DNA of 48,501 nucleotides from Acidobacteriota bacterium (lineage in GTDB: Bacteria; Acidobacteriota; Blastocatellia; Chloracidobacteriales; Chloracidobacteriaceae), in the NCBI GenBank assembly GCA_016208495.1, contig JACQXX010000074.1, positions 1 to 48,501 of the forward strand, written 5' to 3'. Position numbers and translations under genes: made by a program. The notes beneath the pieces are model-generated. The model saw only the letters and a program-made list of their open reading frames with translations, ran no database searches and was not told the origin of the DNA. Below are positions 9,650 through 41,366 of the stretch, piece after piece. Every line of letters starts with the position of its first letter. Positions within the stretch are counted from its first letter, which is position 1.

Positions 9650-10561
9650 TCAAATTGAATTGCATTTGGCTGGAGCCACACCATTCAGGTATTGAGCCGG
9701 GTCAATCGCGCGGCCTTTGTAGAAAACTCCAAAGTGCAAGTGAGGCGGCGTATGTTTGGCGTTTCCCGTATCACCAATCGTCGCAATCTGTTGCCCTTGT
9801 TTGACTTGTTGTCCGGATTTAACCCATTTCCTGAAATCGGTATTGCTGCAGTGGCAATACACCGTCGAGACATCTCCATGATCAATTGTAATCTGATTCC
9901 CACCTTTGCCTTTCGCTCCATGAAAGACAACTTTGCCGTCACGATGGGCATAGATGGGCGACTGGTTCAGCACACCACGGATGTCCAGCCCTCTATGGGG
10001 TCGTCCACCCATACGTGGTGCTTTAAACTCACCCCGCCCATTGTTTGATTCTCTCAAGTGACCTGTTTTCCCAGCGGGATGAGGGTTAAATCCTGGAGTT
10101 CCCGTAATTGGGTTGATTCCAGCCCCCGTCGCTGGCTGAGAAGCCGAAGTCGTTTCTTGACTGGCCTGGGTTGGGCTGGCTGGTGCAACGGTTGCGTCCT
10201 TTCCCGAATACTGGCGGACTTTGTGCGCAGCCAGAGCGGCATCCACCTGGGTTTGAAACTGACGGGCAGCTTCACATAATGAAAAGAATGTCCGTCCTTG
10301 TGGGTCAACGCGTCCATCTGGGGCTGGAAATCGCAACACATTTTTTTGATAGGCACGAATCGCGGCCCTGGTGTCATCATTGATCGAGCCGGTGGCAAGA
10401 ATTGGCCGGGAATAAAAGCTGAAATTTGCGCCAGCCATTGAGAAGAGTTTTTGGGCACTTTGGAGCAAATGTTGAATTTTTTTGACATCGTCAGATTTAT
10501 TTCCAGTTTGATTGGGTAAAAGCGTGCCAACTGGAAAGCGGATTGCATAACTGATGCTCAT
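9650..10561 (-). CDS. M23-family metallopeptidase with peptidoglycan-binding-like N-terminus
   Basis: A 303-residue protein. Residues about 20-95 resemble a peptidoglycan-binding domain (VKKIQHLLQSA...TGSINDDTRAAIRAYQKNV). A Ser/Thr/Ala/Pro-rich linker follows (about 120-165). Residues about 185-295 are a LytM/M23 endopeptidase with zinc ligands in HRGLD (HxxxD) and HLHFG (HxH), and the typical GDTGNAKHTPPHLHFGV signature. The family cleaves peptide cross-links in peptidoglycan. No signal peptide is visible at the N-terminus, so export may depend on another route, or it may serve inside a secretion or phage-like particle. Confidence 0.88.
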   Translation of the reverse strand: MSISYAIRFPVGTLLPNQTGNKSDDVKKIQHLLQSAQKLFSMAGANFSFYSRPILATGSINDDTRAAIRAYQKNVLRFPAPDGRVDPQGRTFFSLCEAARQFQTQVDAALAAHKVRQYSGKDATVAPASPTQASQETTSASQPATGAGINPITGTPGFNPHPAGKTGHLRESNNGRGEFKAPRMGGRPHRGLDIRGVLNQSPIYAHRDGKVVFHGAKGKGGNQITIDHGDVSTVYCHCSNTDFRKWVKSGQQVKQGQQIATIGDTGNAKHTPPHLHFGVFYKGRAIDPAQYLNGVAPAKCNSI

Positions 10562-13556: not shown

Positions 13557-16500
13557 ATGACTCCTGATGTACCCGTGCGGGCACCTGAAACTCAACTCAA
13601 GATGATGGCGCTCCAGTTGCGCACAGATAGTCCCAGTCTGCTTTTTGTAACAACGCCTGATTCCCAGGCTGAAACGAGTCTTGTCAATGAGCTTCGCACC
13701 TGGCTTGGCCAGGGAGTCACGATTGTAGAAGCGACTCTGAGTCCTGAACCCATCGAGCACCTGAGTATTTCCCGATATCTGACAGCTCTCCCAAAATCAT
13801 CAGGCCAGGCGGTGTTATTTGTTTTTGGATTGGATGATCTTTCGGAACCTTCCCGAACCATTGCCATCAACGCGATGAATAAAGGCCGTGACCAGTTACG
13901 GTGGAGTGACTATTCGGTCGTGGTTTGGGTCCGTCCTGGCACTCCGCCTGAAATCGGAAACCGTGCCCCAGATTTCTACTCCTGGCGAAGTGACGTCTTT
14001 GATTTCGAGGTTCCAAAAGATGATGCCGAACGACAAAAATATCTGTCCCGGCTTCGGTTGTTTGCGCCGACTTCATTGGATGAACTACGGCAGCACTATT
14101 GTGAATATGTCGTACAAACGTACCGTTGGCTTGATTTCCGAGGGCTATTGCAAGTGCGCAATGTGGTTCGGCTACCGCTTGAGGACGTGTTTGTTCCACC
14201 AAAATTGATTGTGCCTGATATGTGGAGAAAAGACGATCAGCTTTTCAAAGGTCAAGATTTTCTTAAAACACATTCTGAAGAATCCCCCAATCCTCCAGTT
14301 CCAGTTGAGAATGCTGTCAGCCTTAAAGATGCGCTACGCTCACAGTTACGATTTGTGGTGTTAGGTGACCCTGGCGCAGGGAAATCCACACTGTTGCGGT
14401 TTCTGGCTCTGGTTTTTGCCCAGGGAAAAGAACAGGTTCAAAAAGTGTTTGGACTTGATGAGGCAAGATTGCCAATTTTGGTTCCGTTGTCCGTATTTGC
14501 TGAAAAACGCAAAACCCAACCTGAATATCAACTGGTTGATTTCTTCTCGCAGTATTTCAAAGAGCAAACATTGCCGGATTTTTCAGCCTTGTTTCAGGAT
14601 GCTTTGCAAAGTGGTCAGGTGATTGTCTTGCTGGATGGGCTGGATAAAATGTCGGCACCATCTGAAAGGGCCGATTGTGTGCAGGCCATTACCGAATTTT
14701 CCAGGATTTATCCAACTGCACAAATCATTGTAACTAACCGGGTTGCAGGATATGTTTTTGATATGTCGTCTGCCTCATTTGAGACTTTTACTTTGGCTCC
14801 ATTTGATCGGGATGATCTGAAACGTTTTACGGTCGCTTGGTCACAAGCACTTGAAGTCATTGGGGGAATTGAGCATGTGTTAGGACCTGGAGCAGCCATT
14901 GGGGGAATTATTGGGCATATGTCAGCAGATGCTGCAACTCAGCGGAGGGTGGAGTTACGTGCGAAAAATCTCTTTTCAGCCATAACCGAACATCCTGGAG
15001 TCAAGCAACTGGCTACCAATCCGCTTCTGTTGACGCTCCTCGCATTGATATATCATCAGGGCACCCGGCTCCTGAACAATCAGATTGAACTTTATCGCCT
15101 TTGTATTGAAGTTCTAACTGAGACATGGAATTTGGCTCGAAGTTTAACCGGGAGCCCAATTGATCTCTACCTTGGCGAACGACGACTGACTGAACAGTTT
15201 GTCGTGCGAATGCTGGCACCGGTCGCCTATTGGATGCACCAGCATAAGCCCGGCGGGGTGATTGACCGCCAGGAATTAGAAACATTGATTGCTCGAAACT
15301 TTGAAGAAGAAGGGAAATCGAAGGGAGAATCCCTGGTTCTTGCCCGTGATATTGTGAGGGTGGTCCAGGAACAACCCGGTTTGCTTCTTGAACGTGCGCC
15401 AGATCAGTTTAGCTTTAACCATCTTTCTTTTCAGGAATTTTTTGCTGCTCTTGCAATAAGTAGAAAAACAGAGACCGAGATTTTTAATTTTGTTTGCCAA
15501 TTTGTACAAAACCCTCGGTACTTTGAAGTATTGAAATTTCTTGTTAGCATTCTTCCTTTTCCTGAGCAAGAGGTAATTCTAAAATATATTGAAGAAAACA
15601 ACCTTTATTTGCTAAATCAGTGCCTTAGAGCGGGCGGCGATGAAATTAGTAACGTTTCTGGAGGAGTGGAGCCAATTGATGAGTTTCGTGACCTCCATCG
15701 TTTTCGTGAAAGTTATTTGAGAATTATTAATACTCATTTCAGGTCAGTCAAAGGCATTTTTAAACCTTGGAATGTATTAGGAGATGCATATGCGGAAGTA
15801 CAAGGTGTCCAAATCTCAGAATTTGAAGCTGTGCTTTATGGAGCAATAGTTGGTAAAACACCAATAGCATCAATGTATTATAGCTGGGTTCCAGTAGAGC
15901 AATCCCTGAAACCTACACAATTTGTTATCCACAAAACCCCCAAAGAATTAAATGAAATGCGAGAAATAGGTCAGTTGTTTTACTTCGAGATGTGTAATGT
16001 AGAATGTTCTTCTCCGCTTTGGCCACACAAAAAAGCCTTGAATGACATTAAGAAAAATTTATCTGAAGGGTTAGCTTCACGGGATTTTTATATGGCTGAG
16101 GATCATCACCTTGCAACAGAATATCTATATCACTATTTTGGTAGCATTAAGGAAACAGTTGAAAATTTATTAAAGATCCTTGACTCATACAAAAGAGATA
16201 ATGAATTTTTTTTCCCAGAAGGTGATGTTGATGAATCTTCCGCAAAAGCTTATTTTTTCCTTTTGCGATTTCAACAGGAGGGACTACATCCTCTTGAGTT
16301 TCTGTTACCTCAACGTGATCGAGATTTGGCTGATCTTGCTCCTGGTGAGCCTCGAAATTCTTGGAATTTATGGACTGACAAGCAAGTGTGCTTGAGGGTG
16401 AAGCATCTTTATGACGCTTATCAAAAATCATACCGATGGATGGTTGAACATGCCTTCCCAACACTCAAAGACCACCTTGCTTTTTACCGGCTTGGGCCAG

Positions 16501-16856
16501 TTCAGTTCAATATCCAGGTTTGTATCAAAAGAAAGGCGCTTGAGCACTTCAAGGGCTTACTTTCAGGTGGTAGCGTTAGTATCGAGTGGAAACCCGTTGC
16601 AACCATGGCAGAAGCCTCTACAAGCGTGGAACTGATTCAAGAAGAACAGCTTGAAAAAGAAAGCGACATAAGGACTACCTTTTCAAGGTTAAGAACTCAA
16701 CTTCAGGCACAAGGGCGAAATCCAGATTGGATAAGCAAAGGTTTTTGGGGGAGACACTTCGCAATCATAGACACTGTTCTTGAAGATAATCTCTTGCATA
16801 AAATGGTCTATGAACAATTGAAAAATGACCTTTCTAAAATCTTGGGGGATTTTTAA
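13557..16856 (+). CDS. Large NACHT-domain NTPase, candidate anti-phage STAND protein
   Basis: A 1099-residue protein. Residues about 1-170 form a degenerate P-loop-like domain ending in RAPDFYSWRSDVFDFEVP, a signature I know from paired NTPase proteins. Residues about 255-640 are a NACHT module: Walker A GDPGAGKST at about 269-277, Walker B VIVLLDGLDKM at about 354-364, the TNRVAGY sensor region, and the winged-helix tail FSFNHLSFQEFFAALAIS. The remaining ~460 residues have no repeats I recognise; after a short helical stretch they become distinctly AT-rich. In bacterial NACHT/Avs-type defence proteins the C-terminus is the ligand sensor and the N-terminus the effector. No nuclease, TIR or protease motif is visible here. 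It is downstream of and probably works with the 440-residue ATPase. Confidence 0.85.
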   Translation: MTPDVPVRAPETQLKMMALQLRTDSPSLLFVTTPDSQAETSLVNELRTWLGQGVTIVEATLSPEPIEHLSISRYLTALPKSSGQAVLFVFGLDDLSEPSRTIAINAMNKGRDQLRWSDYSVVVWVRPGTPPEIGNRAPDFYSWRSDVFDFEVPKDDAERQKYLSRLRLFAPTSLDELRQHYCEYVVQTYRWLDFRGLLQVRNVVRLPLEDVFVPPKLIVPDMWRKDDQLFKGQDFLKTHSEESPNPPVPVENAVSLKDALRSQLRFVVLGDPGAGKSTLLRFLALVFAQGKEQVQKVFGLDEARLPILVPLSVFAEKRKTQPEYQLVDFFSQYFKEQTLPDFSALFQDALQSGQVIVLLDGLDKMSAPSERADCVQAITEFSRIYPTAQIIVTNRVAGYVFDMSSASFETFTLAPFDRDDLKRFTVAWSQALEVIGGIEHVLGPGAAIGGIIGHMSADAATQRRVELRAKNLFSAITEHPGVKQLATNPLLLTLLALIYHQGTRLLNNQIELYRLCIEVLTETWNLARSLTGSPIDLYLGERRLTEQFVVRMLAPVAYWMHQHKPGGVIDRQELETLIARNFEEEGKSKGESLVLARDIVRVVQEQPGLLLERAPDQFSFNHLSFQEFFAALAISRKTETEIFNFVCQFVQNPRYFEVLKFLVSILPFPEQEVILKYIEENNLYLLNQCLRAGGDEISNVSGGVEPIDEFRDLHRFRESYLRIINTHFRSVKGIFKPWNVLGDAYAEVQGVQISEFEAVLYGAIVGKTPIASMYYSWVPVEQSLKPTQFVIHKTPKELNEMREIGQLFYFEMCNVECSSPLWPHKKALNDIKKNLSEGLASRDFYMAEDHHLATEYLYHYFGSIKETVENLLKILDSYKRDNEFFFPEGDVDESSAKAYFFLLRFQQEGLHPLEFLLPQRDRDLADLAPGEPRNSWNLWTDKQVCLRVKHLYDAYQKSYRWMVEHAFPTLKDHLAFYRLGPVQFNIQVCIKRKALEHFKGLLSGGSVSIEWKPVATMAEASTSVELIQEEQLEKESDIRTTFSRLRTQLQAQGRNPDWISKGFWGRHFAIIDTVLEDNLLHKMVYEQLKNDLSKILGDF

Positions 16857-16975: not shown

Positions 16976-17520
16976 TTCCGCCCGGATGGGCGATGGAGAG
17001 TAGCCGGTGTGGCAGCCTGCTTTGAGGCGCACCCACCGGAAACCGTGTTCCACCCCAGGTTCGCGCCCGGATGGGCGCTGGAGAACACACCATGTCATCA
17101 ACCCATTTTAGTTTGCATTACCACATTGTATTCAGCACCAAACACCGCCAGCCGGTCATTGCCCAGGATTGGCGGCCTCGACTTCATGCATTCATCGGTG
17201 GCGCAGTACGAACTTTGGGTGGCATTCCGGAAATGGTTGGAGGAACTGCTGACCACTTTCATCTTCGGTCAGCCCGACCACCATAGACAAGGTAAAAAGC
17301 TACATTGCCAACCAGGAAGACCACCACCGAAAACGGACATTCCGCGAAGAGTATCTGGATTTGCTGAGAATGAGTGGTATTGAGTTTGACGAAACCTTCA
17401 TTGAATAATCTGGTTCCAGCGCCCTACCGGGCGCAAATCGCAGACGGCCTGATTGTTCCGGTGGGTGCGCCTCAAAGCAGGCTTCCACACCGGCTACTCT
17501 CCGGCGCCCTCCGGGCGGAA
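16976..17520. mobile_element. IS200-like/RAYT element relic bounded by long inverted repeats
   Basis: About 65 bases at 16976-17042 (beginning TTCCGCCCGGATGGGCG) recur in reverse complement at 17456-17520. A second nested pair is GCGCCCGGATGGGCGCTGG (17062-17080) against CCAGCGCCCTACCGGGCGC (17416-17434). Between them lies a decayed Y1 transposase gene. REP-like palindromes around a tyrosine transposase are the layout of REP-associated transposases. Confidence 0.75.
17092..17408 (+). pseudogene. Decayed IS200-like (Y1/HUH) transposase
   Basis: The ATG at 17092 opens a frame reading MSSTHFSLHYHIVFSTKHR and on to GTADHFHL, the start of the Y1 transposase family including the HUH-type HFH metal site. 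It ends early at 17286. A second frame (17283-17408) reads IDKVKSYIANQEDHHRKRTF and ends in a normal-looking GIEFDETFIE stop, the C-terminal part of the same family with the Tyr-containing helix. About 50-60 central residues and the frame between the two parts are missing, so the enzyme cannot be active. Confidence 0.85.
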
Positions 17521-17682
17521 GCCAGGTATAGCATTTCAGAAAATGATTTCAGTTCAGAGTAACGCCTTCAGGCGTGAGACGTAATGCGTGGGACAAAAGA
17601 AAAACGATCTCGTCTAAAGACGATACTCTGAACCTTTTTCTGAAAATCTATAGCTTCCGGTTTTCGCCGAAATACCAAATCT

Positions 17683-19860
17683 TTACAAAGAAGTTGCTTC
17701 TTCAACTTCTCGTGGGAGCATCATGGCTGACCAGAATGCCTGATACTTGCCCTGGTTTTCGATCAATTCAGTGTGCGTGCCTTGTTCGACGATTCGGCCC
17801 TGGTCGAGCACCACGATGGAGTCGGCGTTCATGACCGTCGTTAGCCGGTGGGTAATCAAAAAGATCGTTTTCCCAGGGCAATGCGTGCGGATGTTCTCCA
17901 TGACTTTGCGTTCGGTCTGGCTGTCGAGGTTGCTGGTCGCTTCGTCCAGGATCAACAACGCCGGGTCGCGCAGCAGCGCCCGGGCAATCGCAATCCGCTG
18001 GCGTTGACCACTTGAAAGCGCAACGCCCCGGTCTCCGATCTCATAGGTGTACTGTTTGGGCAAACTCATGATGAAATCGTGCACTTCGGCCAGTTTGGCG
18101 GCGGTTTGCACGTCTTCAAGCGAAGCCCCAGGCCGTCCAAGCGTGATGTTGTCAAAAATTGTGCCGCTCGTCAGGCTTGGATCCTGAAACACAACACCGA
18201 TTTGGCGCCGGATGGCCGTTCGTTCCAGTTCGCGAAGATCAAACCCATCAACCAGAATTCGCCCTTCCGAAACGTCATACAGCCGGGTCAGCAGATTTGC
18301 CAGCGAGGTTTTCCCGGAACCGGTGGCACCTAGCACCGCAGTGGTTTTCCCAGCCGGAATCGAGAGCGTGAGGTTGGTCACCACGGGCGTGCCTTCGCGA
18401 TACCAGAACGAGACGTTGTCAAAGTGAATGTCCCCGCTGAGGTGGATTCCCTGGAACGTTTGCCCGGTGTGCGCATCTTCGGGCGTGGCTTCATAGGCAT
18501 CGTTGAGGCGTTCGATTCCGATGAGCGCTTCCTGAATCGCCGTAATCGAAGGCGCCAGCCGATCAACCGGCGACAGGAACATCCCCAGGAGCGACGAAAA
18601 AAACATCATTTGACCCACCGTCAACTCTGATGTCATCACCAGACGGGCGCCTACCCACAGCAGCACAATCGAGACAAAACCGGTCAGCAGGGAAGACGCC
18701 GTGGCAATCGTTGCCGCCAGCAGGCCACGGCGAAACTGTGCGGCTTCAAGCAATTGATATTGCTGGAGTATTCGTTCGTAAGCCAGCGGTTCAGCCGTAA
18801 ACACTTTCAGGATGCGGATGCTTTCCAGGGCTTCGATAAACCGGTTTGACACCGTTCCAAAGTAATGCCGGACCGCCCATTGCTGGCGGACAAACGGAGC
18901 ATGCAGCGCCCAGGTCACACCGGCCAGAATCGGGACAAAACACAGCGTCAGCAGTGTCAACTTGAGGTTAAACCAGGCCATCAATGCCGCCATTACCAGC
19001 AGCAAGGCCAGATCAATACAGACCGAAAGCACTCCGTTGGTGATCGCCGACTGCACCGAGGTCACATCTGTGGTTCGCGAATAGATATCGCCGGTCTGGC
19101 GCTGGTCAAAGAACTTGATCGGCAATCGGAGCACCCGGTTGACGTAGCCCGGCCCCAGCAACAGCCCGTACTGCATTCCAAGGTAGGCCAGCAGGTACTG
19201 CCGTAGCCAGCCAACCAGTGACCGGATGCCAAGCAGCGCCAGGACGCCAAGCACCAGCAACCACAACAAATCCCGGCTGGCGGATGGAATCACCCGGTCA
19301 ATCACCATCTGGACAAAAAACGATTGCGCCAGACCCAGGACCGTGACCACTCCGGCACAGGCAACGGATTGCAGCAGGAGCTTTCGTTCACGGAAGGCAA
19401 GGAGAAATAGCTTGTGAAGCGGGGATTTCTCGTCTTGATTGGGTCTGAAGTCAGCGCCCGGAGTGAGCAGCAAAATCGCATTGCTCCAGCGGCGGGAAAA
19501 TTCATCGCGTGAAAGCGTCACAATTCCGCCTGCCGGGTCGGCAACCACAACTGACTGGGAATCAACCTGATGCAGCACGACGAAATGGCCGGCAGGTGTG
19601 TCGTGGAAATGGACAATCGCCGGCAAGGGAATCTGGCCCAGGACTCCGGGCCTGGCTTTGCCGGCTGAAGCGCGAAATCCCAGCTTTTCGGCGCCTTCGC
19701 GCAGGCTGGTCAGGCTGGTACCCTGAGTGCCGGTTTCAAGGACATCCAAAACCCGCTGCAGGCTCATTCGGAGTCCGTGATGGCGTGCGACCGTCGCCAG
19801 GGCTGCCGGTCCGCAATCATTTGAATTCTGTCCACGAACGCAGGCAAATCGTTGGCGCAT
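17683..19860 (-). CDS. C39 peptidase-containing ABC exporter of the graspetide cluster
   Basis: A peptidase-containing ABC transporter that should cut a leader peptide and export the product across the inner membrane. Counted from my preferred ATG at 19860 it has 725 residues, the usual size. Residues 1-135 are a C39 peptidase with catalytic Cys16 in NSNDCGPAAL and His in HFVVLHQV. Residues about 150-440 contain six membrane helices. Residues about 470-715 are the ATPase with Walker A GATGSGKTS, signature LSSGQRQRIAIARAL, Walker B LLILDEATSN and the TH-RLTT switch. An earlier ATG at 19908 adds 16 residues encoded by a heptamer repeat; the shorter form puts the catalytic Cys where the family has it. 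It lies downstream of the ATP-grasp ligase and the precursor gene on the same strand. Confidence 0.93.
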   Translation of the reverse strand: MRQRFACVRGQNSNDCGPAALATVARHHGLRMSLQRVLDVLETGTQGTSLTSLREGAEKLGFRASAGKARPGVLGQIPLPAIVHFHDTPAGHFVVLHQVDSQSVVVADPAGGIVTLSRDEFSRRWSNAILLLTPGADFRPNQDEKSPLHKLFLLAFRERKLLLQSVACAGVVTVLGLAQSFFVQMVIDRVIPSASRDLLWLLVLGVLALLGIRSLVGWLRQYLLAYLGMQYGLLLGPGYVNRVLRLPIKFFDQRQTGDIYSRTTDVTSVQSAITNGVLSVCIDLALLLVMAALMAWFNLKLTLLTLCFVPILAGVTWALHAPFVRQQWAVRHYFGTVSNRFIEALESIRILKVFTAEPLAYERILQQYQLLEAAQFRRGLLAATIATASSLLTGFVSIVLLWVGARLVMTSELTVGQMMFFSSLLGMFLSPVDRLAPSITAIQEALIGIERLNDAYEATPEDAHTGQTFQGIHLSGDIHFDNVSFWYREGTPVVTNLTLSIPAGKTTAVLGATGSGKTSLANLLTRLYDVSEGRILVDGFDLRELERTAIRRQIGVVFQDPSLTSGTIFDNITLGRPGASLEDVQTAAKLAEVHDFIMSLPKQYTYEIGDRGVALSSGQRQRIAIARALLRDPALLILDEATSNLDSQTERKVMENIRTHCPGKTIFLITHRLTTVMNADSIVVLDQGRIVEQGTHTELIENQGKYQAFWSAMMLPREVEEATSL

Positions 19861-19868
19861 ATGGAATG

Positions 19869-19893
19869 AGGGTTCAGGGTTCAGGGTTTGGGG
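19869..19893 (+). repeat. Heptamer run (GGGTTCA type) before the exporter start
   Basis: GAGGGTTCAGGGTTCAGGG and TTTGGGG lie just upstream of the exporter ATG at 19860 (minus strand). In the extended frame they would encode Leu-Asn-Pro-Glu-Pro, which argues against the longer N-terminus. Confidence 0.65.
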
Positions 19894-19973
19894 AAATATC
19901 AGATTCAATACAAATTCATTGTGGACGGGATGGTTTTCACCCGGCTGGGGGAACGCTGAACTCTTTTCGAAAT

Positions 19974-20981
19974 TTACGCCGAGAGCGCCACCGGATCGGT
20001 ATACAGCGCCGTTCCCTGGATCAACATTTCAGCCAGGTTCTCACAGATCGGCAGTTGGGTCAGTTCTTCGATCCAGCCCCACTGACCATTGGGATTAATT
20101 TCAAGAAATACATAGCGGTTATCGGGAGTGATAATCATATCAATACAACCGAAAACCAGCCCGAGTTCACGCACCAGTTGCTGGCATTTGATTTTGATCG
20201 CTTCCGGGAGTCGGTGCCTGAGATAGGGTGTGTTGGCAATATCGTAGCGCCGCCAGTCATCTTTGGAGCGCTGGCTTTGTTGCGAGTGAATTTCGGCGGC
20301 AAAGATTTTTCGTCCGACGACTGTAATCCGCAATTCCACCTTTTTGGGGATATATTCCTGAAATAAACAAGGCGCATGGGCGACCGCTTTGAGGCGTTCC
20401 AGGTCTTTTTCCTGAACTCGATTGGTATAAATGCCTTGATTGCGAATCCCGGCTTGCGGATTTCCCCGCCGCAGGTACTGAGAAACCGATTTATAGATCA
20501 TGTTTTTGCCGGTCTGGCAGTAAAACTTCTGGACTTCATCCGGATCATTGGTAATCAGAGTGGGTGGAATTTCGAAGCCAACCGCCTGGGCAAGTTCCAA
20601 CTGGTAGGGTTTATATTCGGCCAGACGGACATTTGCATGTGGATTGACCCAAAACCGATCCTGGAGGGTTTGTAAGATACCGTGGAAAATAAGGTCGGTT
20701 TCGCGTTTGGCAAATTCCCGATCTTCGGGGGCCATGGCGTCGGTCACCAGCGGTGGCTCCATCGAGCGATACCAGACTGCATAAACATCATTGAAATCAA
20801 TGCGTTCCCCGTCAATTTCAAGCTCATTTCGGGAGATACCATTTCGTTTGTAAAACCGATGAATCGCTTTTTGGGGAAAATCCTGTGAATTATACCGAAC
20901 ATAACGGACGTTTCTTTGATGAAGATGTTGAATCAGGTCATCGGCGGTTGTGTCATCGGGGCGAGTAAGAATGAGGATCAT
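19974..20981 (-). CDS. MvdD-like ATP-grasp ligase (graspetide synthetase)
   Basis: A 335-residue ATP-grasp enzyme of the microviridin-ligase type, which joins Ser/Thr or Lys side chains to Asp/Glu side chains of a precursor peptide. Visible family marks are MILILTRPDD at the start, VWYRSMEPP (about residues 69-77), the nucleotide-binding core with KSVSQYLRRG and FQEYIPKKVELRITVVG, and the metal-binding C-terminal FGCIDMI...YVFLEINPNGQWGWIEE. An upstream in-frame ATG at 21050 would add 23 residues, but these cover a perfect hairpin and family members begin at MILI, so I start at 20981. It lies 234 bases after the precursor gene. Only one ligase is present, whereas microviridin clusters have two. 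Confidence 0.92.
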   Translation of the reverse strand: MILILTRPDDTTADDLIQHLHQRNVRYVRYNSQDFPQKAIHRFYKRNGISRNELEIDGERIDFNDVYAVWYRSMEPPLVTDAMAPEDREFAKRETDLIFHGILQTLQDRFWVNPHANVRLAEYKPYQLELAQAVGFEIPPTLITNDPDEVQKFYCQTGKNMIYKSVSQYLRRGNPQAGIRNQGIYTNRVQEKDLERLKAVAHAPCLFQEYIPKKVELRITVVGRKIFAAEIHSQQSQRSKDDWRRYDIANTPYLRHRLPEAIKIKCQQLVRELGLVFGCIDMIITPDNRYVFLEINPNGQWGWIEELTQLPICENLAEMLIQGTALYTDPVALSA

Positions 20982-21006
20982 GACGATTGGGAGAGTTTCT
21001 GAGGAA

Positions 21007-21054
21007 GTGATTGACTGGCCTGAATGAACTAGCCTCACCCGGCCAGTCAATCAC
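21007..21054 (-). promoter_or_regulatory. Hairpin between precursor and ligase genes
   Basis: GTGATTGACTGGCC (21007-21020) and GGCCAGTCAATCAC (21041-21054) are perfect 14-bp inverted repeats with a 20-base loop. No T-run follows on the minus strand. The position fits a processing or attenuation structure that lets the precursor be made in excess over the ligase. Confidence 0.6.
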
Positions 21055-21215
21055 CTGTTTTAAAGAAAGAAAGACATGCTTTCAATTTTTTATAAATCAC
21101 TGGCTGGGTTGAAAAAGCGTTTCCAGCCACCCTTTGCCCTGATGAAACCAGCAAAAACCTCAACCTTCTGATTGGAGGCTCGTGGGTGGTTCACCAGCCA
21201 CAGGGAAATTGATCA

Positions 21216-21359
21216 TTAGCTTGTGAAGTCAATAAACAAACCATCGGAATCAAAGGTTGGTCGCTTGCGGGTCAATTCAGAGGTCATTCCCCAGGCTTCG
21301 TCAGCCTGCATTTCTTCTAAAAATTCGATTCCAAATGGTTTTACTGTTTCCTGAGACAT
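21216..21359 (-). CDS. Graspetide (microviridin-like) precursor peptide
   Basis: A 47-residue peptide starting at the ATG at 21359, with GGAGAAG seven bases upstream. Upstream in-frame Mets at 21446 and 21413 lack such a site and add unrelated residues. Residues 8-16 (PFGIEFLEE) match the microviridin leader helix motif PFFARFLE that the ATP-grasp ligase recognises. The C-terminal third (TRKRPTFDSDG, then LFIDFTS; residues 30-47) resembles the TxKxPSD core, with Thr30, Thr35, Ser38, Thr46, Ser47 and Lys32 as possible donors and Asp37, Asp39, Asp44 as acceptors. No GG site is present for the C39 peptidase; Gly24 after Trp23 is the only glycine near the expected cut. The ligase and exporter follow on the same strand. 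Confidence 0.82.
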   Translation of the reverse strand: MSQETVKPFGIEFLEEMQADEAWGMTSELTRKRPTFDSDGLFIDFTS

Positions 21360-21530
21360 TATTCTTCTCCAAATGACGGTTGGTAGTGAAAAAAGGTGGG
21401 AGTATTTCTGAGCCATCCCAATCGGAAGCCGTTTTCGAATCGTCACCGTCTCTGCGATGAAAGTGGCTTGCCGATTTGATTTTGGGAAAAAGGATAGGCG
21501 GTGTGTTTACTGATCTTCGTCTGGAAATAC

Positions 21531-21558
21531 CTCAAGAAAAGCTCAAGTTTTTCTCAAG
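21531..21558 (-). promoter_or_regulatory. Three direct repeats with 11-bp period upstream of the precursor gene
   Basis: On the minus strand CTTGAG-N5-CTTGAG-N5-CTTGAG reads toward the precursor gene, whose ATG is about 170 bases downstream. Exact 11-bp spacing of hexamers is the arrangement bound by OmpR/PhoB-type response regulators. TATCCT about 35 bases downstream could be a -10 element. No response-regulator gene is in the window. Confidence 0.5.
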
Positions 21559-21785
21559 ATTTCATGAGCGAAAGTATAGTGATCAATAGCCAATAGTTAG
21601 TGGTTAGTAGATTACTAAAATCAATTTTTTGAATGAGCTAGTGTTATTTCCATATGAGAAAATTTGATCAATTTGAGGTGAAAGACAGCCTGAAGGAAAA
21701 GCCGCTGGATTGGAACATTTGATCTGGGAGAGGTGTCAAAATCGAGGGATCGAATTTTGGCTGACCAGCCGTGAGGAACTTCAGT

Positions 21786-22229
21786 ATGCAAAAGAGCCAG
21801 TTCGTACCGTGGGTTCATCTGACAAACTTTTTCCTGATGGTGAGCACGCTGGGGAGTTTTCTGCTGCTGAGTTATATTGCCATTCAGCCGATTCACTGCG
21901 GAGGCCCACCGATTGAGTATCGTGTCGCCGCATTTGTATCGCGCAAAGACAAACGCTGTTCTTTTAAGGTCAACCTGGAAGGGAAGTTCGTTCAATTGAA
22001 TGATGGGCCGGCTGTTTGCCTTGAATCCCTGATTGCCCACATCAGACCGGCGTTGATCACCCACCCAAAACCCGAGCGAAACGTAGTGATTGTGACCAGT
22101 CGCGAAACCGCCTATCAGCAAGTGATTGATCTGGTTGACCAGTTGAAAAAGGCGGGGGCGACAACCATTGATTTGGCACTGGCGGAAAATCAGGTAGAGT
22201 CCAGGCGACAGGTAAAATCTTGTTGGTGA
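21786..22229 (+). CDS. ExbD/TolR-family protein
   Basis: I start at the ATG at 21786 because GAGGAAC lies about six bases upstream. The 147-residue product has one N-terminal membrane helix (about residues 11-31, TNFFLMVSTLGSFLLLSYIA) and a periplasmic domain ending in NVVIVTSRETAYQQVIDLVD and AGATTIDLALAEN, the typical ExbD fold end. In TonB-linked systems ExbD works with ExbB to use the proton gradient. However, the conserved Asp expected in the ExbD membrane helix is not visible here, and no ExbB gene lies beside it, so it may be a specialised or non-coupled member. A longer overlapping frame on the minus strand has no family features. Confidence 0.72.
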   Translation: MQKSQFVPWVHLTNFFLMVSTLGSFLLLSYIAIQPIHCGGPPIEYRVAAFVSRKDKRCSFKVNLEGKFVQLNDGPAVCLESLIAHIRPALITHPKPERNVVIVTSRETAYQQVIDLVDQLKKAGATTIDLALAENQVESRRQVKSCW

Positions 22230-22262
22230 TGATATTTCGCGAAGAGCAAAAGCGATAAAGGA

Positions 22263-22378
22263 TAAGTACCTTGTCATAAATTTCCTGAGATATTGGATTT
22301 GGTAAGTGTTTGATTCTTTTCGTCTATTTCGTGTATTTCGTGGTTCAAAATGTCTTGGAATTTTCAGTAAGGCACGTA
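22263..22378 (+). mobile_element. ~115-bp MITE-like repeat, family 2, copy B
   Basis: Begins TAAGTACCTTGTCATAAATT and ends near TTTTCAGTAAGGCACGTAAG, so the ends are imperfect inverted repeats. The interior (GATATTGGATTTGGTAAGTG, then TTTCGTG units) matches copies at 3285, 28568 (inverted) and 46011. It lies between the ExbD gene and the CHAT gene. Confidence 0.75.
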
Positions 22379-22524
22379 AGAGTTCAATGTATTTGGTACC
22401 CTGTCATTTTGCTCCATTGTGGATAGCCACATTTTCGCTATGATGCAATTCACTGAGTCTTCTGCGTTTGGCAACCCCGCTGGATCAACGCTGAAATTGG
22501 ATAGAAGGAAAGAGCAATACGTTC

Positions 22525-25500
22525 GTGATACAAAAACAAACCTCCGTTCGTCTGGTCCAGGTAATTTTTTTCTTTACCTGTTTTCAACTCAATGTGTTTC
22601 TGGCTGCCGGACAAACTCCGGGAGCCTCTCAGGCTCAATCTTCGGAAACACTTGAAAAAGCCAGAAAATTTCGTCAAAACAATAATTTAGCTGATCTCCA
22701 CGCCTCACTGGCGTGTTATGAAACGGCGATTGCTGACGCCCGCCAGAGCCACAATTCGACTAATTTGGGGCGATTGTATTTTGAAGCCGGTCAAGTCTAT
22801 TTCCAGTGTGGCAAGGTTGATTCAGCGCTTGAACGGCTGGGACTGGCGCTTGAGCAATATCAGGCTGTGAATGACAAAACCACTCAGGCCAGGATTTTAA
22901 ATTATCTTGGGTCAATTCACATCTTTCGCGGGGAATTTCAACCTGGGATCGAGAACTTCAATCAAGGGTTGAAGTTGTGTCGCGAACTCAATGAAACGGT
23001 TGGGATTGCCTATGTTCTGGTCAACCTTGCAACTGCTCACCAGGGAGTGGGGAATTATCAGGTTGCGATTGATTGCCTGGCCGAGGCACTGATGATCAGA
23101 AAACAAGTGGGTGATCTGCGCGGTCAGGCGATTGTGCTGTATAGCCTTGGGACACTTCGTTTAGAACAGGATGAAACTGCCATCGCGATTGAATATTTTT
23201 CCCAGGCGCTTGACCTGCATCGGGCAGACCTCAAGGACCCAGGCGGGAAAGCCATTGTTTTAACTGGGCTCAGCACGGCGTTTTGGAAAGCTGAGCGATA
23301 CGAAGCGTCTTTAAAATATGCTGAAGAGGCCCTGGCCATCTTTCAACAAATCGGCGACCAAAAAGGGAAGATCCAGTTACTGATTACGATGGGGAGTGTG
23401 GCCCTCAAGTATGGCGAATACCAGAAAGCCTTTAACCTGGCAAATCAGGCACTTGAACTGGCCGAACAGACCAGTGATGTTCAGTCACTGATGTATTTAT
23501 ATCAGCTCCTGGGAAACTATTATGTCAGTGTGGCCGACCTTGAAAAATCAATTCAGTATTACCAGGATTCATTGCGGTATGCTCAAAAGTTAAACAATGT
23601 TGTTCAGCAAGGCATTTTGATGAGTTCAATCGGCTCGGTCTATTTTCGCCAACAACAGTACCCGGCGGCTCAACGTGCTCACCAGCAAGCGGTTGAGCTG
23701 CTTCGAAAAACTGGCAACCGGTTGAATTTGGGGCAGACGCTTCAAAATTTGGGCGCCGCCCTGCATCAGCAAGGCCGCCTGGATGAGGCACTGGTTGCCC
23801 TGGACGAGGCCAGGTCGCTTTTACAGGCGATTGAGTATAATTCAGGGCTGTCTGGGGTGTATGTAGAAATTGGGCAGGTCAAGCTTGCGGCTCACAAATC
23901 AGATGAAGCCTATGCTGCATTTCAAGCTGCCCTCCACATTGCGCGCAAGGCAAACGACAATTATTTAGAGGCCCATGTTTGTTTTTGTTTAGCCAAACTC
24001 GAACGATCACGGCAAAATTTTGATGAAGCGGTCCACCTGATTGAAGAAGCGATTGCGAAAGCCGAATATGCACGGGGAAATATCAACGACCCATTTCAGC
24101 GAGCCACATTCTTTTCTCAGGTTCAGGAGTTCTTTGACGTATACCTCCTGATTTTGATAGACCAGTATCACCAGCACCCGAGTCCAGCCGTGCTTGTGAA
24201 AGCATTTCAGGTTCACGAACAAGGGCATTCGCGAAGTTTGCTGGATAGTCTGTCAAATCAAAAAGGTTCCGACCGGTTGGCAGATTCATCACTTCTTGGT
24301 CAGGATATCAACCTGCGAAATCAGATTGCGTTCAAATGCGCCCGGTTGACCGAACTTTTGAACCAAACACACACGGCTGACCAGGAACGTCAACTGAAAT
24401 CTGAACTTGAGGAACTCCTCACCCGACACCAACAATTGAAAGAAGACCTCCGACAGTCACGCGATGTAAAAACGGCAGCTATCGCCCCAGTGCCTCTGGA
24501 CTTAAAAGACCTCCAGGCACGGCTCGATTCTGAAACTGTTCTGGTCAAATATGCGATGACCAGGGAAAAAACATTTGTTTGGGTTGTAGACCGTGAGTCG
24601 TTCCGGATGGTTGAACTGGCTGACCGGGCCACACTGACGCCGTTGATTGAACGGGTCCATCTGGCTTACTCGCAGAGTGACCAAAGCCGCAATTTGACAA
24701 AGCTGAACCAAAAAAGCGTGCTTGAAAGCCAGTCGCCAGTCTGGAATCTCAGTCGCCAGCTTCTTGACCCGATCCGACCGTTCCTTCGTCAAAAACTGTT
24801 GATCATCCCGGCAGATTCCATGTTTTCCATTCCATTTGGAATCCTGCCTGTTTCGGATGCAACGAACCCAAACCAGACACACTATTTCATTGAACTTCAG
24901 GAAATCAGCATTCTTCCCTCGACCTCACTGATGAAATATTTTAAGCCAACTCCCTTGAATGCTGATTCCATTGAACACATTGCCGTGTTTGCCGATCCAG
25001 TGTTTAGTTTGAACGATACCCGAATGAAGGCCATTTCACGCAACATCAACCAGAAACATGGATCCAGCCAGCGGACGCTGATTCTTGGACGTGATGACTC
25101 GACGAAACCCATTCAAACTACAGAGCCTCTGACTATCAATCGGTTACCCTGGACAGAGAAAGAAGCACAACGGATTCAACGATTTGCTCGCAATAGGAAA
25201 GTACTGGTTAAATCTGGAGCAGACGCCACTTTGTCGGCGTTGCAGGCACTCGATCTGGAGGAACTGCAAATTCTCCATTTTGCCACTCACGGGCTGGTTG
25301 ACCAAAATCACCCTGATTTGTCAGCCCTGATTTTGTCGCTGGTGGATAAAGATGGGAATTCGATGGATGGGTTTCTGCGCGGGGCCGATATTGTAAATCT
25401 GCGGCTCAAAACAGAACTGGTTGTGTTATCGGCCTGCCACACTGGCACCGGAAAAGAGATTCCTGGCGAAGGAATTCTCAGCCTGACCCGAAATTTTCTG

Positions 25501-25713
25501 ATGGCCGGGTCACAGCGGGTGGTTTATACCTTGTGGGCGGTCAATGATCAGGCAACGACCCACCTGATGGAGCGATTTTATTTTCATCTATTAAAAGAGA
25601 AGCGTACTCCGGCAGATGCGCTGAGAAAAGCCCAACTTGATATGCTCCGCACCGAGCGCTGGAAAGACCCATACTACTGGGCTGCCTTTCAGATCCAGGG
25701 GGCGATGAACTGA
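22525..25713 (+). CDS. Secreted TPR-CHAT protein (caspase-like peptidase domain)
   Basis: A 1062-residue protein starting at a GTG with a GGAAAGAG-like site upstream. Residues 1-30 form a signal peptide (RLVQVIFFFTCFQLNVFLAAG). Residues about 40-520 are tandem tetratricopeptide repeats, many of the Kinesin-light-chain type (ALxxxRxxGD, YxxALxxxxQAL). After a helical linker with coiled-coil character (about 590-650), residues about 720-1062 are a CHAT domain, with the catalytic His922 in HFATHG and Cys971 in LSACHTGTG both intact, and the usual RKAQLDML...YYWAAFQIQG end. CHAT domains are caspase-like proteases, and TPRs recognise partners. The signal peptide places this one in the periplasm or outside, unlike Craspase-type CHAT proteins. 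The partner is unknown. Confidence 0.92.
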   Translation: MIQKQTSVRLVQVIFFFTCFQLNVFLAAGQTPGASQAQSSETLEKARKFRQNNNLADLHASLACYETAIADARQSHNSTNLGRLYFEAGQVYFQCGKVDSALERLGLALEQYQAVNDKTTQARILNYLGSIHIFRGEFQPGIENFNQGLKLCRELNETVGIAYVLVNLATAHQGVGNYQVAIDCLAEALMIRKQVGDLRGQAIVLYSLGTLRLEQDETAIAIEYFSQALDLHRADLKDPGGKAIVLTGLSTAFWKAERYEASLKYAEEALAIFQQIGDQKGKIQLLITMGSVALKYGEYQKAFNLANQALELAEQTSDVQSLMYLYQLLGNYYVSVADLEKSIQYYQDSLRYAQKLNNVVQQGILMSSIGSVYFRQQQYPAAQRAHQQAVELLRKTGNRLNLGQTLQNLGAALHQQGRLDEALVALDEARSLLQAIEYNSGLSGVYVEIGQVKLAAHKSDEAYAAFQAALHIARKANDNYLEAHVCFCLAKLERSRQNFDEAVHLIEEAIAKAEYARGNINDPFQRATFFSQVQEFFDVYLLILIDQYHQHPSPAVLVKAFQVHEQGHSRSLLDSLSNQKGSDRLADSSLLGQDINLRNQIAFKCARLTELLNQTHTADQERQLKSELEELLTRHQQLKEDLRQSRDVKTAAIAPVPLDLKDLQARLDSETVLVKYAMTREKTFVWVVDRESFRMVELADRATLTPLIERVHLAYSQSDQSRNLTKLNQKSVLESQSPVWNLSRQLLDPIRPFLRQKLLIIPADSMFSIPFGILPVSDATNPNQTHYFIELQEISILPSTSLMKYFKPTPLNADSIEHIAVFADPVFSLNDTRMKAISRNINQKHGSSQRTLILGRDDSTKPIQTTEPLTINRLPWTEKEAQRIQRFARNRKVLVKSGADATLSALQALDLEELQILHFATHGLVDQNHPDLSALILSLVDKDGNSMDGFLRGADIVNLRLKTELVVLSACHTGTGKEIPGEGILSLTRNFLMAGSQRVVYTLWAVNDQATTHLMERFYFHLLKEKRTPADALRKAQLDMLRTERWKDPYYWAAFQIQGAMN

Positions 25714-38391: not shown

Positions 38392-39393
38392 ATGACGCTC
38401 CCAAAACTGCAATTAACCTTGGAAACAGTCACTCCTCTTTTTTTAGGCGGGGCAACCCAACAGCCAGAACTCAGACCGGCTTCGGTTCGGGGCCAATTAC
38501 GTTTTTGGTTGCGTGCAGCCCTGGGCGGAGTAATAGGTGATCACAATTGTAATTTGCTGTCTCAATTAGAGTCTAATGTCATGGGAAAAACGGACCATGC
38601 TTCATCTGTGGTCGTAAGGATAACCTCACCTTCAATAATTCCTGGGTCCGAACCGCTTTTACCACACAAGGTTGGAAATCAGGGGGGCATCGTTCAGGCA
38701 TTTCGCCCAAATACTTCGTTTGACTTAATTCTCTCTTCCAGATTTGGTGCCTCACCAGACGCACTTGAGAGTGCTGGTTGGAGTTTGCTGCTTTGGGCTA
38801 CGTTAGGGGGATTAGGCAGACGTTCAAGACGTGGTGCAGGGAGTATCCGTATTAAAGAGATAGTATCAATCCCAACCTCATTTTCAGAGAACTTGAAACA
38901 ATGTTTGGAATCCTCGAAAGATAGATTTGATACAGGAGAAGAACTGGCTGATCATATTAGGACTGTAATTGAACAAAGTCGTATTGCTTTTGCCGCGTTT
39001 TCTTCGCCAGGCATAGTCAGCTTTTCTGAAAATCTTCCTGTGTTTTCGATTTTATTATCCCAATCCCGTGTTGTTGTTTGGACACCACTCAATACGGATC
39101 TCAGTGATTACAAAACAGTTTTAAGCAAGCTCATGAACCAGATGTCTGATCAAAAAGCGAAGCTTGGAGGATTAGAATTTGAACAAGCTTTTGGTGGGAT
39201 TTCTCCACGCCGCCGTGCATCGCCTTTAGTCATTACAGCTCACAAGTTAGAAAATGAGTGGGCACTTGTTCTGACATATTTCAAAGCTGAAATCACGAAA
39301 GGTCAACCTGGTAAATCCTGTCATGTTACTTCGTTTTTAGACTCTTTAAGCCCCAAATGGGAAGTCAACTCAACGGGAGGTGCCAAAAAATGA
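38392..39393 (+). CDS. cmr1: Cmr1, type III-B RAMP protein
   Basis: A 333-residue Cas7-like RAMP protein that caps the guide 3' end of the Cmr effector complex. The opening TLPKLQLTLETVTPLFLGGA plus SVRGQLRFWLRAALGG is the Cmr1 signature, and GGLGRRSRRGAGSI (about residues 141-154) is the Gly-rich RAMP loop. GAGGT lies six bases before the ATG. The stop codon overlaps the cmr2 start (ATGA at 39390-39393). It opens the six-gene cmr operon and is preceded by a 555-base gap that should hold the operon promoter. Confidence 0.95.
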   Translation: MTLPKLQLTLETVTPLFLGGATQQPELRPASVRGQLRFWLRAALGGVIGDHNCNLLSQLESNVMGKTDHASSVVVRITSPSIIPGSEPLLPHKVGNQGGIVQAFRPNTSFDLILSSRFGASPDALESAGWSLLLWATLGGLGRRSRRGAGSIRIKEIVSIPTSFSENLKQCLESSKDRFDTGEELADHIRTVIEQSRIAFAAFSSPGIVSFSENLPVFSILLSQSRVVVWTPLNTDLSDYKTVLSKLMNQMSDQKAKLGGLEFEQAFGGISPRRRASPLVITAHKLENEWALVLTYFKAEITKGQPGKSCHVTSFLDSLSPKWEVNSTGGAKK

Positions 39394-41366
39394 AATCTTC
39401 ACTATTGGCTTTTCACCTTGGCCCCATCCAGGATTTCATCTCAACAGCCAGACGAACTCAAGATTTGTGGATTGGAAGCTGGTTGCTATCACATTTGAGT
39501 CGAACTGCCATTAAGACAGCCCAAGGCAACCAGGCCATCCTGATTTTGCCGAAGCCGAAAATGTCATCGAAGTTTGGTGATCCAACTGAAGCCGATACCC
39601 CCAATCATTTTTTGGTGGAATTTGAAAGTGATGAACCATCAAAAGTTGCTGAGAACATTGAGGCAGCCGTCCGAAGTGAATGGAAACGAATTGCAACTCA
39701 GGTGAAAACAGAGTTCTTTAAAGAAGTTACGGATGGATTATGGGACCGGCAAATCAATACATTCCTGGAAATTTATTGGGTAATTCTCACAGGTCCCGAT
39801 TTATCTCGAAATGATGCACTGGCAGCATTAGACGCCCGAAAAAGACTGCGTGATTTCCAACCAACGGAAGAGCCCCATATCAAATGCACGTTGTGTGGGA
39901 CTCGCCAGGAACTCAGCGGGAAATCATCAGTCTATGACGCCCGAAAGTGGTGGTTTGAAAAAATAAACCAGGATCCGGGTCGTTTACGACTTCGAGAAGA
40001 TGGTTCGGAACGACTCTGCGCCGTGTGTGTCGTGAAACGAACTGCCCTGGTAGCCAAAGCAGTGAACTTGGACAAACAAGACGGTTCTTTCCCGTCAACC
40101 AGCGGTGTTGCTGCCGCACCATTCAAAGCGAAACTATTAAAAGAAGGTGAGGCAGAACCCCTGTTGAAACTTCATTTTCAGGCTTTGGAAGATGTTTTTC
40201 TCCCTGCTCAAGTGGATGAAGAGTGTCTTCCGGAACTGGTTCGAATTCACACGGGGTTTTCACAAGCAATTCGGAGGAAACTTCTTACCTACGACGGAGA
40301 TGTGTTCTATCCAGAACAGTTTGTTGAAGAGAAATTTAAGAAGGAATTTCCTAAATCCTTCAATGATCTGACAGCTCTCACTCAGCAAAAAGCAGATGAA
40401 CTTACTTTTTCGAAAGACGATTTAATGGAATATGAACAATCTTATGACGACGAAGAACTCTTCAAAGAAGAAGTTTATACTCTACAGGCTCGGCTTCGTA
40501 AAGTTCATATTCAGCTTCGGAATCTCGTGAAAAAACTGGAAGTAAGTCCTTCAAAGTATTTTGCGGCCCTGATGATGGACGGCGACCACATGGGAGCTTT
40601 TTTTGGCAATGCCAGCACCGAACAAGCCCAGGAACTCAGTGAGTGTGTTTCCACCTTTGCCCGTGAAAAGTCCAAAACTATCGTTGAGGAACATTTCGGG
40701 CGGTTGGTGTATGCCGGGGGGGATGATGTGCTGGCGTTGTTACCACTGGAAACAGTCCTCCCTTGTGCCAGAAAGTTGCAGGAAGAATTCAAATCATCCA
40801 TCAAAGATATTTCCTTACCTGAAGGAGTGGCTCATTACCCAACCCCGAGTGCCGGGGTTGTGATTGCGCATCATCTTTCACCGTTGGACCGGGTGTTGTC
40901 TTCTCTGCGAGGTGCTGAGAAAACCGCCAAAAATCGCTACGGACGGGATGCTCTCTGCGTGTATTTACTCAAGAGGTCCGGAGAGGAAATCCAGGTTGGA
41001 ACCCATTGGAAATATGACAATCCAGGTCCGGTTGATGCGGTAGCCATTATGGCCCAGGTTATCAAGGCGCTTCGAGATGAGACGTTATCTATGAAGTTTC
41101 CCTATGCGGTTTCAGAAGAAGTTCGGGGGCTTTGTGCCACGACTTTACCGGCTGAAGCGAGGGGTGCTGCACTCAAAAGACTGGCCAAACGCCATAGCGA
41201 GCAGGGTGATGAGAACAAAACGAAGGCAAAGGAGATTGCCACTTTGTTGGCTGCCTGGTGCGAAGGAAAAAATCCTGATGATTCCAGGTCTTTAGGATTT
41301 GAAGAAATAAGCCGATGGATCCTGGTCGCCCGCTTTATTGCTGCTGGAGGGAGGGATGAACGATGA
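39390..41366 (+). CDS. cmr2: Cas10/Cmr2, cyclic oligoadenylate synthase subunit
   Basis: The start at 39390 has GGGAGGTG upstream and an ATGA overlap with cmr1; an in-frame ATG at 39357 lies inside cmr1. The 658-residue product starts LLAFHLGPIQDFISTARRTQ, the usual Cmr2 N-terminus without an HD nuclease domain. A zinc-binding CTLC...CAVC pair lies at about residues 166-169 and 209-212. The first palm motif MMDGDHMGAFFG is near 395, and the catalytic palm motif GGDD at residues 443-446 is intact (LVYAGGDDVLALLP). It should therefore make cyclic oligoadenylates from ATP when the complex binds target RNA, but not cut DNA through an HD site. Confidence 0.96.
   Translation: MKSSLLAFHLGPIQDFISTARRTQDLWIGSWLLSHLSRTAIKTAQGNQAILILPKPKMSSKFGDPTEADTPNHFLVEFESDEPSKVAENIEAAVRSEWKRIATQVKTEFFKEVTDGLWDRQINTFLEIYWVILTGPDLSRNDALAALDARKRLRDFQPTEEPHIKCTLCGTRQELSGKSSVYDARKWWFEKINQDPGRLRLREDGSERLCAVCVVKRTALVAKAVNLDKQDGSFPSTSGVAAAPFKAKLLKEGEAEPLLKLHFQALEDVFLPAQVDEECLPELVRIHTGFSQAIRRKLLTYDGDVFYPEQFVEEKFKKEFPKSFNDLTALTQQKADELTFSKDDLMEYEQSYDDEELFKEEVYTLQARLRKVHIQLRNLVKKLEVSPSKYFAALMMDGDHMGAFFGNASTEQAQELSECVSTFAREKSKTIVEEHFGRLVYAGGDDVLALLPLETVLPCARKLQEEFKSSIKDISLPEGVAHYPTPSAGVVIAHHLSPLDRVLSSLRGAEKTAKNRYGRDALCVYLLKRSGEEIQVGTHWKYDNPGPVDAVAIMAQVIKALRDETLSMKFPYAVSEEVRGLCATTLPAEARGAALKRLAKRHSEQGDENKTKAKEIATLLAAWCEGKNPDDSRSLGFEEISRWILVARFIAAGGRDER

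Follow-up and report, generated by a model that had tools for sequence, protein, structure and literature searches.

We describe a compact gene cluster of graspetide type on the minus strand of an acidobacterial contig (Acidobacteriota bacterium, family Chloracidobacteriaceae; GenBank assembly GCA_016208495.1, contig JACQXX010000074.1), whose 48,501 nucleotides (nt) are referred to below as the window. The cluster comprises, in this order, genes for a precursor peptide, an ATP-grasp ligase and an exporter in which a C39 peptidase domain is fused to an ABC transporter. It adds a small new branch to a peptide class already known. By analogy with studied graspetide systems, the ligase probably ties peptide side chains into rings, while the exporter probably cuts and ships the peptide. 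We put at roughly 0.8 the probability that this is a graspetide cluster belonging to a small lineage of Acidobacteriota, with a leader-guided single ligase, C39 cutting and export, and cores free to diverge. An earlier note on this DNA had proposed a one-strand set of a 47-residue precursor, an MvdD-like ATP-grasp ligase and a C39 ABC exporter, and had read it as a graspetide cluster with an unusual precursor. Open reading frames and domain searches bear out the set, and the MvdD-like ligase with its adjoining precursor of conserved leader upholds the class. The parts of the cluster are as follows.

21216..21359, minus strand: precursor peptide gene, 47 aa, MSQETVKPFGIEFLEEMQADEAWGMTSELTRKRPTFDSDGLFIDFTS (open reading frame, comparison with relatives)
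21288..21359, minus strand: leader, residues 1-24 (PFGIEFLEE ... AWG), with Gly24, kept in 7/7 precursors, as the likely C39 cutting region
21219..21287, minus strand: core, residues 25-47, MTSELTRKRPTFDSDGLFIDFTS, with 7 Thr/Ser, 4 Asp/Glu and 1 Lys
21364..21370, minus strand: Shine-Dalgarno-like GGAGAAG ahead of the precursor ATG, read from the sequence
19974..20981, minus strand: ATP-grasp graspetide synthetase, 335 aa, ATG at 20981 (domain search, tree, fold match)
17683..19860, minus strand: C39-peptidase ABC exporter of 725 aa, with the ATG at 19860 as its start (domain search, sister alignment)

In order to find relatives, named genomes were scanned for related ligases, which gave 37 loci. 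The closest relative is Blastocatellia bacterium SSF51 (L002, also G001), where five precursors, three ligases and one exporter form one array; the ligases are 61-66% and the exporter 69% identical to those of the window. The third genome, G256, comes from another family of the phylum, and its genes for precursor, ligase and C39 exporter follow the order of the window. This first G256 ligase is 37% identical to the window's; a second, convergent ligase (L103:12297-13262, minus strand) is 40% identical, and no leader-motif precursor was seen beside it. All seven precursors of these three genomes carry PFG[ILV]E[FY][FL]E in the leader, and in each a Gly stands ahead of the core. In an alignment of six of them M1, P8, F9, G10, E12, E15 and G24 are invariant, and the G256 precursor shows the same motif letters and the Gly before its core. 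Compared pairwise, the leaders beat all 1000 shuffles in 21/21 pairs (mean z 10.3). For the cores the mean z was 0.33, so that they are effectively unrelated; fewer than 50 of 1000 shuffles did as well in two of the 21 pairs (the window core with s2, and s1 with s2), where about one such pair is expected. Each core carries 5-10 Thr/Ser and 3-6 acidic residues.

The earlier note had defined the peptide by its core, TRKRPTFDSDG plus LFIDFTS. Both strings are present in the window precursor and in none of the six related ones, and the core motif is therefore private to the window genome. Whether related clusters keep the precursor had been set beforehand as a test. The outcome is divided: the alignment of related precursors revealed conserved leader residues and no common core. 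The pattern of a kept leader and a free core agrees with the picture in PMC8939145 (section 5), where leaders go with the branching of the ligase tree and cores are variable.

The window precursor matched no Pfam or NCBIfam family model at E up to 1, and none of the seven precursors had an NCBIfam match at E up to 10, the Pfam scan covering the window precursor and the other six being scanned with NCBIfam. The window genome holds one ligase of MvdD-like type (E 0.001), and the leader pattern occurs in it once. At 1e-40, 18/162 genomes of the class have a ligase match, and at 1e-55 4/396 genomes of a phylum sample. The leader DNA pattern gave 7 matches in the 396 phylum genomes (1 in the window genome, 5 in SSF51 and 1 in G256), all of them precursors adjoining ligases, against 2 matches for the reversed control pattern (hand-counted). 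A slightly wider leader pattern, run on 398 genomes of G256's family, gave 5 matches and its control 4 (hand-counted); among the 5, only G256 itself has a ligase within the 3-kb locus. The single ligase, presented earlier as an unusual trait, was overdrawn as such: in 21 fetched regions round related ligases, counted at E 1e-10 and some of them lying at contig ends, one ligase was present in 11, two in 9 and three in 1. SSF51 also carries a fourth, distant ligase (L055:2542-2985, minus strand; G001:C176) with a possible Gly/Thr-rich precursor (MARIKITDIEMNQTT...) upstream.

The ligase matches the MvdD pre-ATP-grasp domain PF21068 with 65.3 bits (cut-off 27). Its NCBIfam matches all stay below their cut-offs, TIGR04187 being the best (291.7 of 350 bits), followed by MvdC (261.5 of 425) and MvdD (238.5 of 475). 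An AlphaFold model (mean predicted local distance difference test score, pLDDT, 93.4) is by fold most like MdnC in its precursor-bound structure (5ig9; template modelling score 0.82 by query and 0.86 by target, 32% identity), and the next matches are, in order, CdnC, AMdnB, PruB, MdnB and PsnB. Columns K124, K164 and R218 are identical in 27/27 ligases, and at least 90% of these agree at D281, E294 and N296. A tree was built from 67 ligases (73 rows less four partial copies of sister ligases and two of L038), and in it the window and SSF51 ligases form one clade (support 100/100). The 17 microviridin-type ligases of the class form a separate clade (100/99), and the window ligase lies outside it. 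Approximately unbiased (AU) tests for the sister of the window clade rejected neither the microviridin-type ligases (p 0.29) nor the 11 actinobacterial ones (p 0.32) nor the first G256 ligase (p 0.50).

We then compared leader and ligase at their presumed interface. The microviridin leader is anchored on a helix of MdnC, where Arg17 of PFFARFL contacts Glu191, Asp192 and Asn195, and marinostatin also has PFFARFL (PMC7823629, a review); these contacts, like the graspetide group numbers used below, are second hand. The earlier placing of the window leader in the position of the microviridin leader holds, PFGIEFL standing for PFFARFL, and at the position of Arg17 the seven precursors all have Glu. 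The corresponding ligase stretch is the following.

20394..20408, minus strand: K192-D193-L194-E195-R196 of the ligase, which align with Glu191 to Asn195 of MdnC, where leader Arg17 is bound

The triple at 191/192/195 reads K-D-R in the window, S-H-Q, S-D-R and S-D-R in SSF51, and E-D-G and D-R-R in the first and second G256 ligases. Relative to the microviridin ligases, 4/5 ligases (among window, SSF51 and first G256) have a less acidic pocket at this place. The net charge of the triple is at least 0 in 7/8 ligases with a Glu leader, versus 1/16 with an Arg leader; this difference ranks 1 of 320 same-spacing triples, and that of column 195 is the largest of 324 single columns. The Glu-leader set consists of the window ligase, the three of SSF51, the first of G256, and L010, L045 and L064, the last three with KPL-type leaders, and the Arg-leader set of 14 microviridin-type ligases, L022 and L014. 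These 24 of the 67 tree rows were assigned by hand, the second G256 ligase being aligned and not counted; in the other rows the leader was not found, the contig ended or the residue was another (Q, S, N, T).

These data suggest that the Glu of the leader and the less acidic pocket may recognise each other. In SSF51 two tandem ligase genes share 429 identical bases that include the leader-contact helix (L002:7852-8280 and 9724-10152). Elsewhere these two genes are 53-77% identical when compared in 60-nt steps; the identical block either goes back to gene conversion not long ago or is an artefact in the assembly of a metagenome-assembled genome. We tentatively propose, at somewhat less than even odds, a charge-reversed lock, in which a Glu-anchored PFGxEFLE leader would fit a basic or neutral ligase pocket and be orthogonal to the Arg-anchored microviridin pair, and in which the ligases would accept very different cores. 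In SSF51 three such ligases, two of them sharing the 429-nt block with the leader contacts, would serve five unrelated cores. The charge swap at the leader-ligase interface is a lead, not a result.

In the mechanism that we favour, the leader helix KPFGIEFLEE would dock on the single ATP-grasp ligase, as homology with MdnC suggests. The ligase would phosphorylate Asp/Glu residues of the core, upon which esters, and possibly an amide, would be closed with Thr/Ser/Lys; such phosphorylation and closure are the general chemistry of graspetides (PMC13097080, introduction). The C39 domain of the exporter would cut near Gly24, and a peptide of about 22-23 residues would be exported. Ligase specificity would reside mainly in the leader, which would leave the cores free to diverge. 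As to the rings, the pattern that we would pick first, though at well below even odds, is Thr30-Asp37 with Thr35-Asp39; modelled on the marinostatin ring pattern, it would give a double lactone of the marinostatin/microviridin kind in which both rings have grown by one residue. That the product inhibits a protease is a guess.

The exporter shows the C39 (112 bits), ABC membrane (135 bits) and ABC ATPase (108 bits) domains. Its open frame begins at a TTG at 19908, and the sister protein, taken from its ATG, aligns from the ATG at 19860. C39 ABC exporters cut after GG, GA or GS (PMC10885120); the residue after the conserved Gly is Ser in four precursors and Met (window), Asn and Ala in one each. 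The C39 exporter, listed by the earlier note among the features of the cluster, is an ordinary partner for graspetide ligases, the C39-ABC family topping the table of ligase partners with 433 occurrences (PMC8939145, Table 1).

Several observations weigh against this account or parts of it. The cutting site is weak in the window, with Gly-Met instead of GG, GA or GS. The likeness of the core to that of microviridins was an observation first and a test only afterwards, with a pattern tailored to it, and 0/6 relatives show it. Across the tree there is a single change between Glu and Arg, and independent pairs lend no support, so that the charge match lacks phylogenetic independence. The first G256 ligase combines E-D-G with a Glu leader, although the alignment of its contact stretch is unsure because of a one-residue insertion there, and one microviridin-type ligase (L059) has A-D-K, opposite to the rule. 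The cluster might instead be a one-ligase member of group 1, the microviridins and marinostatins, with a lengthened TxKxPSD core yielding a bicyclic serine protease inhibitor. We hold this to be unlikely. The strict core TxK[YF]PSDx[DE] is absent from the window core, whereas the relaxed pattern T.K.P[ST].?D.[DE] is present. When the letters of this core were shuffled 200,000 times, the pattern came up with a frequency of 9e-5, a figure that is optimistic because the pattern was shaped after the earlier reader's remark. The window core is the only one of the seven that fits this relaxed microviridin/marinostatin order, its six same-leader relatives lacking the motif. MdnC as best fold match, the AU value for the window clade joined with the 17 microviridin-type ligases, and the existence in the class of a one-ligase region with a PFFARFL/TLKYPSD precursor (L042/L082) speak for group 1. 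However, the leader is PFGIEFL and not PFFARFL, the ligase lies outside the well-supported microviridin-type clade, and it falls far under the MvdC and MvdD equivalog cut-offs.

A lineage of graspimiditide type carrying an aspartimide (group 13, mostly actinobacterial) is considerably more improbable. It would account for the PFG common to the window leader and the RPFG recognition motif of ThfA (PMC13003496, section 7), for TIGR04187 as best NCBIfam match and for the AU value with the 11 actinobacterial ligases, and a few group 13 clusters have been called acidobacterial (PMC13001092, a review). But TIGR04187 does not reach its cut-off of 350, no isoaspartyl methyltransferase was present among the neighbouring open reading frames scanned (the search being confined to these), and the residue after PFGx is Glu, where two actinobacterial leaders have Arg (L022, L014) and three have Thr (L015, L019, L023). 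It is scarcely credible that the small frame arose by chance and that the real precursor lies elsewhere. The 234-nt gap to the ligase and the lack of a family model for the frame would fit this, but the leader is conserved in six more precursors adjoining ligases, on which ground we reject it; the frame also has a good ribosome-binding site (GGAGAAG), and no other copy of the leader pattern is present in the genome. A leader-guided graspetide cluster with free cores remains our preferred reading.

Set beside known systems, the window cluster resembles microviridin MdnC/MdnB (group 1) and marinostatin in ligase fold, in the place of the leader motif and in the core order T.K.P[ST]..D.D. It differs from them in having one ligase, PFGIEFL for PFFARFL, one extra Phe in the core, a core not common to its relatives and a ligase outside the microviridin-type clade. 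With the graspimiditides (ThfA/ThfB, group 13) it has in common the single ligase and the PFG in the leader, unlike them it has a C39 exporter and Glu after PFGx, and its ligase lies outside the actinobacterial clades of the tree. Outside the private clade, the ligase closest to the window's is that of G033 (L040/L078), with 43-44% identity; G033 also has a C39 ABC exporter. From its partner gene, G033 would belong to group 21, the rosaritide type with a PpiC-type partner (PMC13097080). Its leaders are of the type LSDE[HQ]LRLVAG and its partner is PpiC-like, whereas the window cluster has neither. Beside the 44% identical ligase and the PpiC-like partner of this locus stand two precursor-like frames with double-glycine-type leaders (L078:7463-7914, plus strand). 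The leaders KPLIFEFLE (L045, L064) and KPLILEFAE (L010) also have Glu at the Arg17 position, but these precursors are longer, with repeated cores, and their ligases fall in a separate clade.

Graspetides have been predicted in large numbers, 21,584 of them in PMC13097080, where 19 groups of at least 20 members were added to 24 earlier ones. No mention of Blastocatellia turned up among the papers listed (15 of 83) in a search of the graspetide literature, subscription papers being mostly outside that search, and the family may already be described. The literature covered says little on graspetides of Acidobacteriota, to which the window cluster adds. Graspetide synthetases are useful as peptide cyclases, and a ligase family with a kept leader and differing natural cores is a candidate for a core-tolerant catalyst. 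A charge-swapped leader, if true, would permit two orthogonal leader-ligase pairs in one cell.

The spacer between precursor and ligase, 234 nt long, contains a further element.

21007..21054, minus strand: hairpin of the precursor-ligase spacer, both arms perfect over 14 nt

The 244-nt stretch 20975-21218 folds better than 200/200 shuffles (z -4.45). The hairpin is not a typical intrinsic terminator, since no U-run follows it; possibly it is an attenuator or an RNA-processing element. An Rfam scan of 17000-22600 gave no family match, and a repeated element is ruled out, as the hairpin is single-copy in the genome. Perfect 14-nt arms were looked for in the sister cluster and none were found. 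Imperfect inverted repeats do occur there, and the largest of them (18 nt, 89%), which separates the first sister precursor from the second (L002:5033-5105), may correspond to the hairpin.

Among the neighbouring genes, a TPR-CHAT gene adjoins the cluster (22525-25713, plus strand), and a TPR-CHAT gene also lies alongside the G033 cluster (L078:3870-6995). A link in which the graspetide would inhibit such a protease was considered and is not supported: the genome holds 60 CHAT domains, and only the region of G033, out of the 21, matched two CHAT queries at 1e-6. An ExbD/TolR-like gene is located upstream of the precursor on the opposite strand (21771-22229, plus strand). On the exporter side are found a gene for a NACHT-domain protein of 1099 aa (13557-16856, plus strand) and, beside the exporter end, a 71-aa fragment of an IS200-like Y1 transposase (17071-17286, plus strand). 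Farther along, the window carries RAMP and Cas10/Cmr2 genes of a type III CRISPR module (38392-41366, plus strand).

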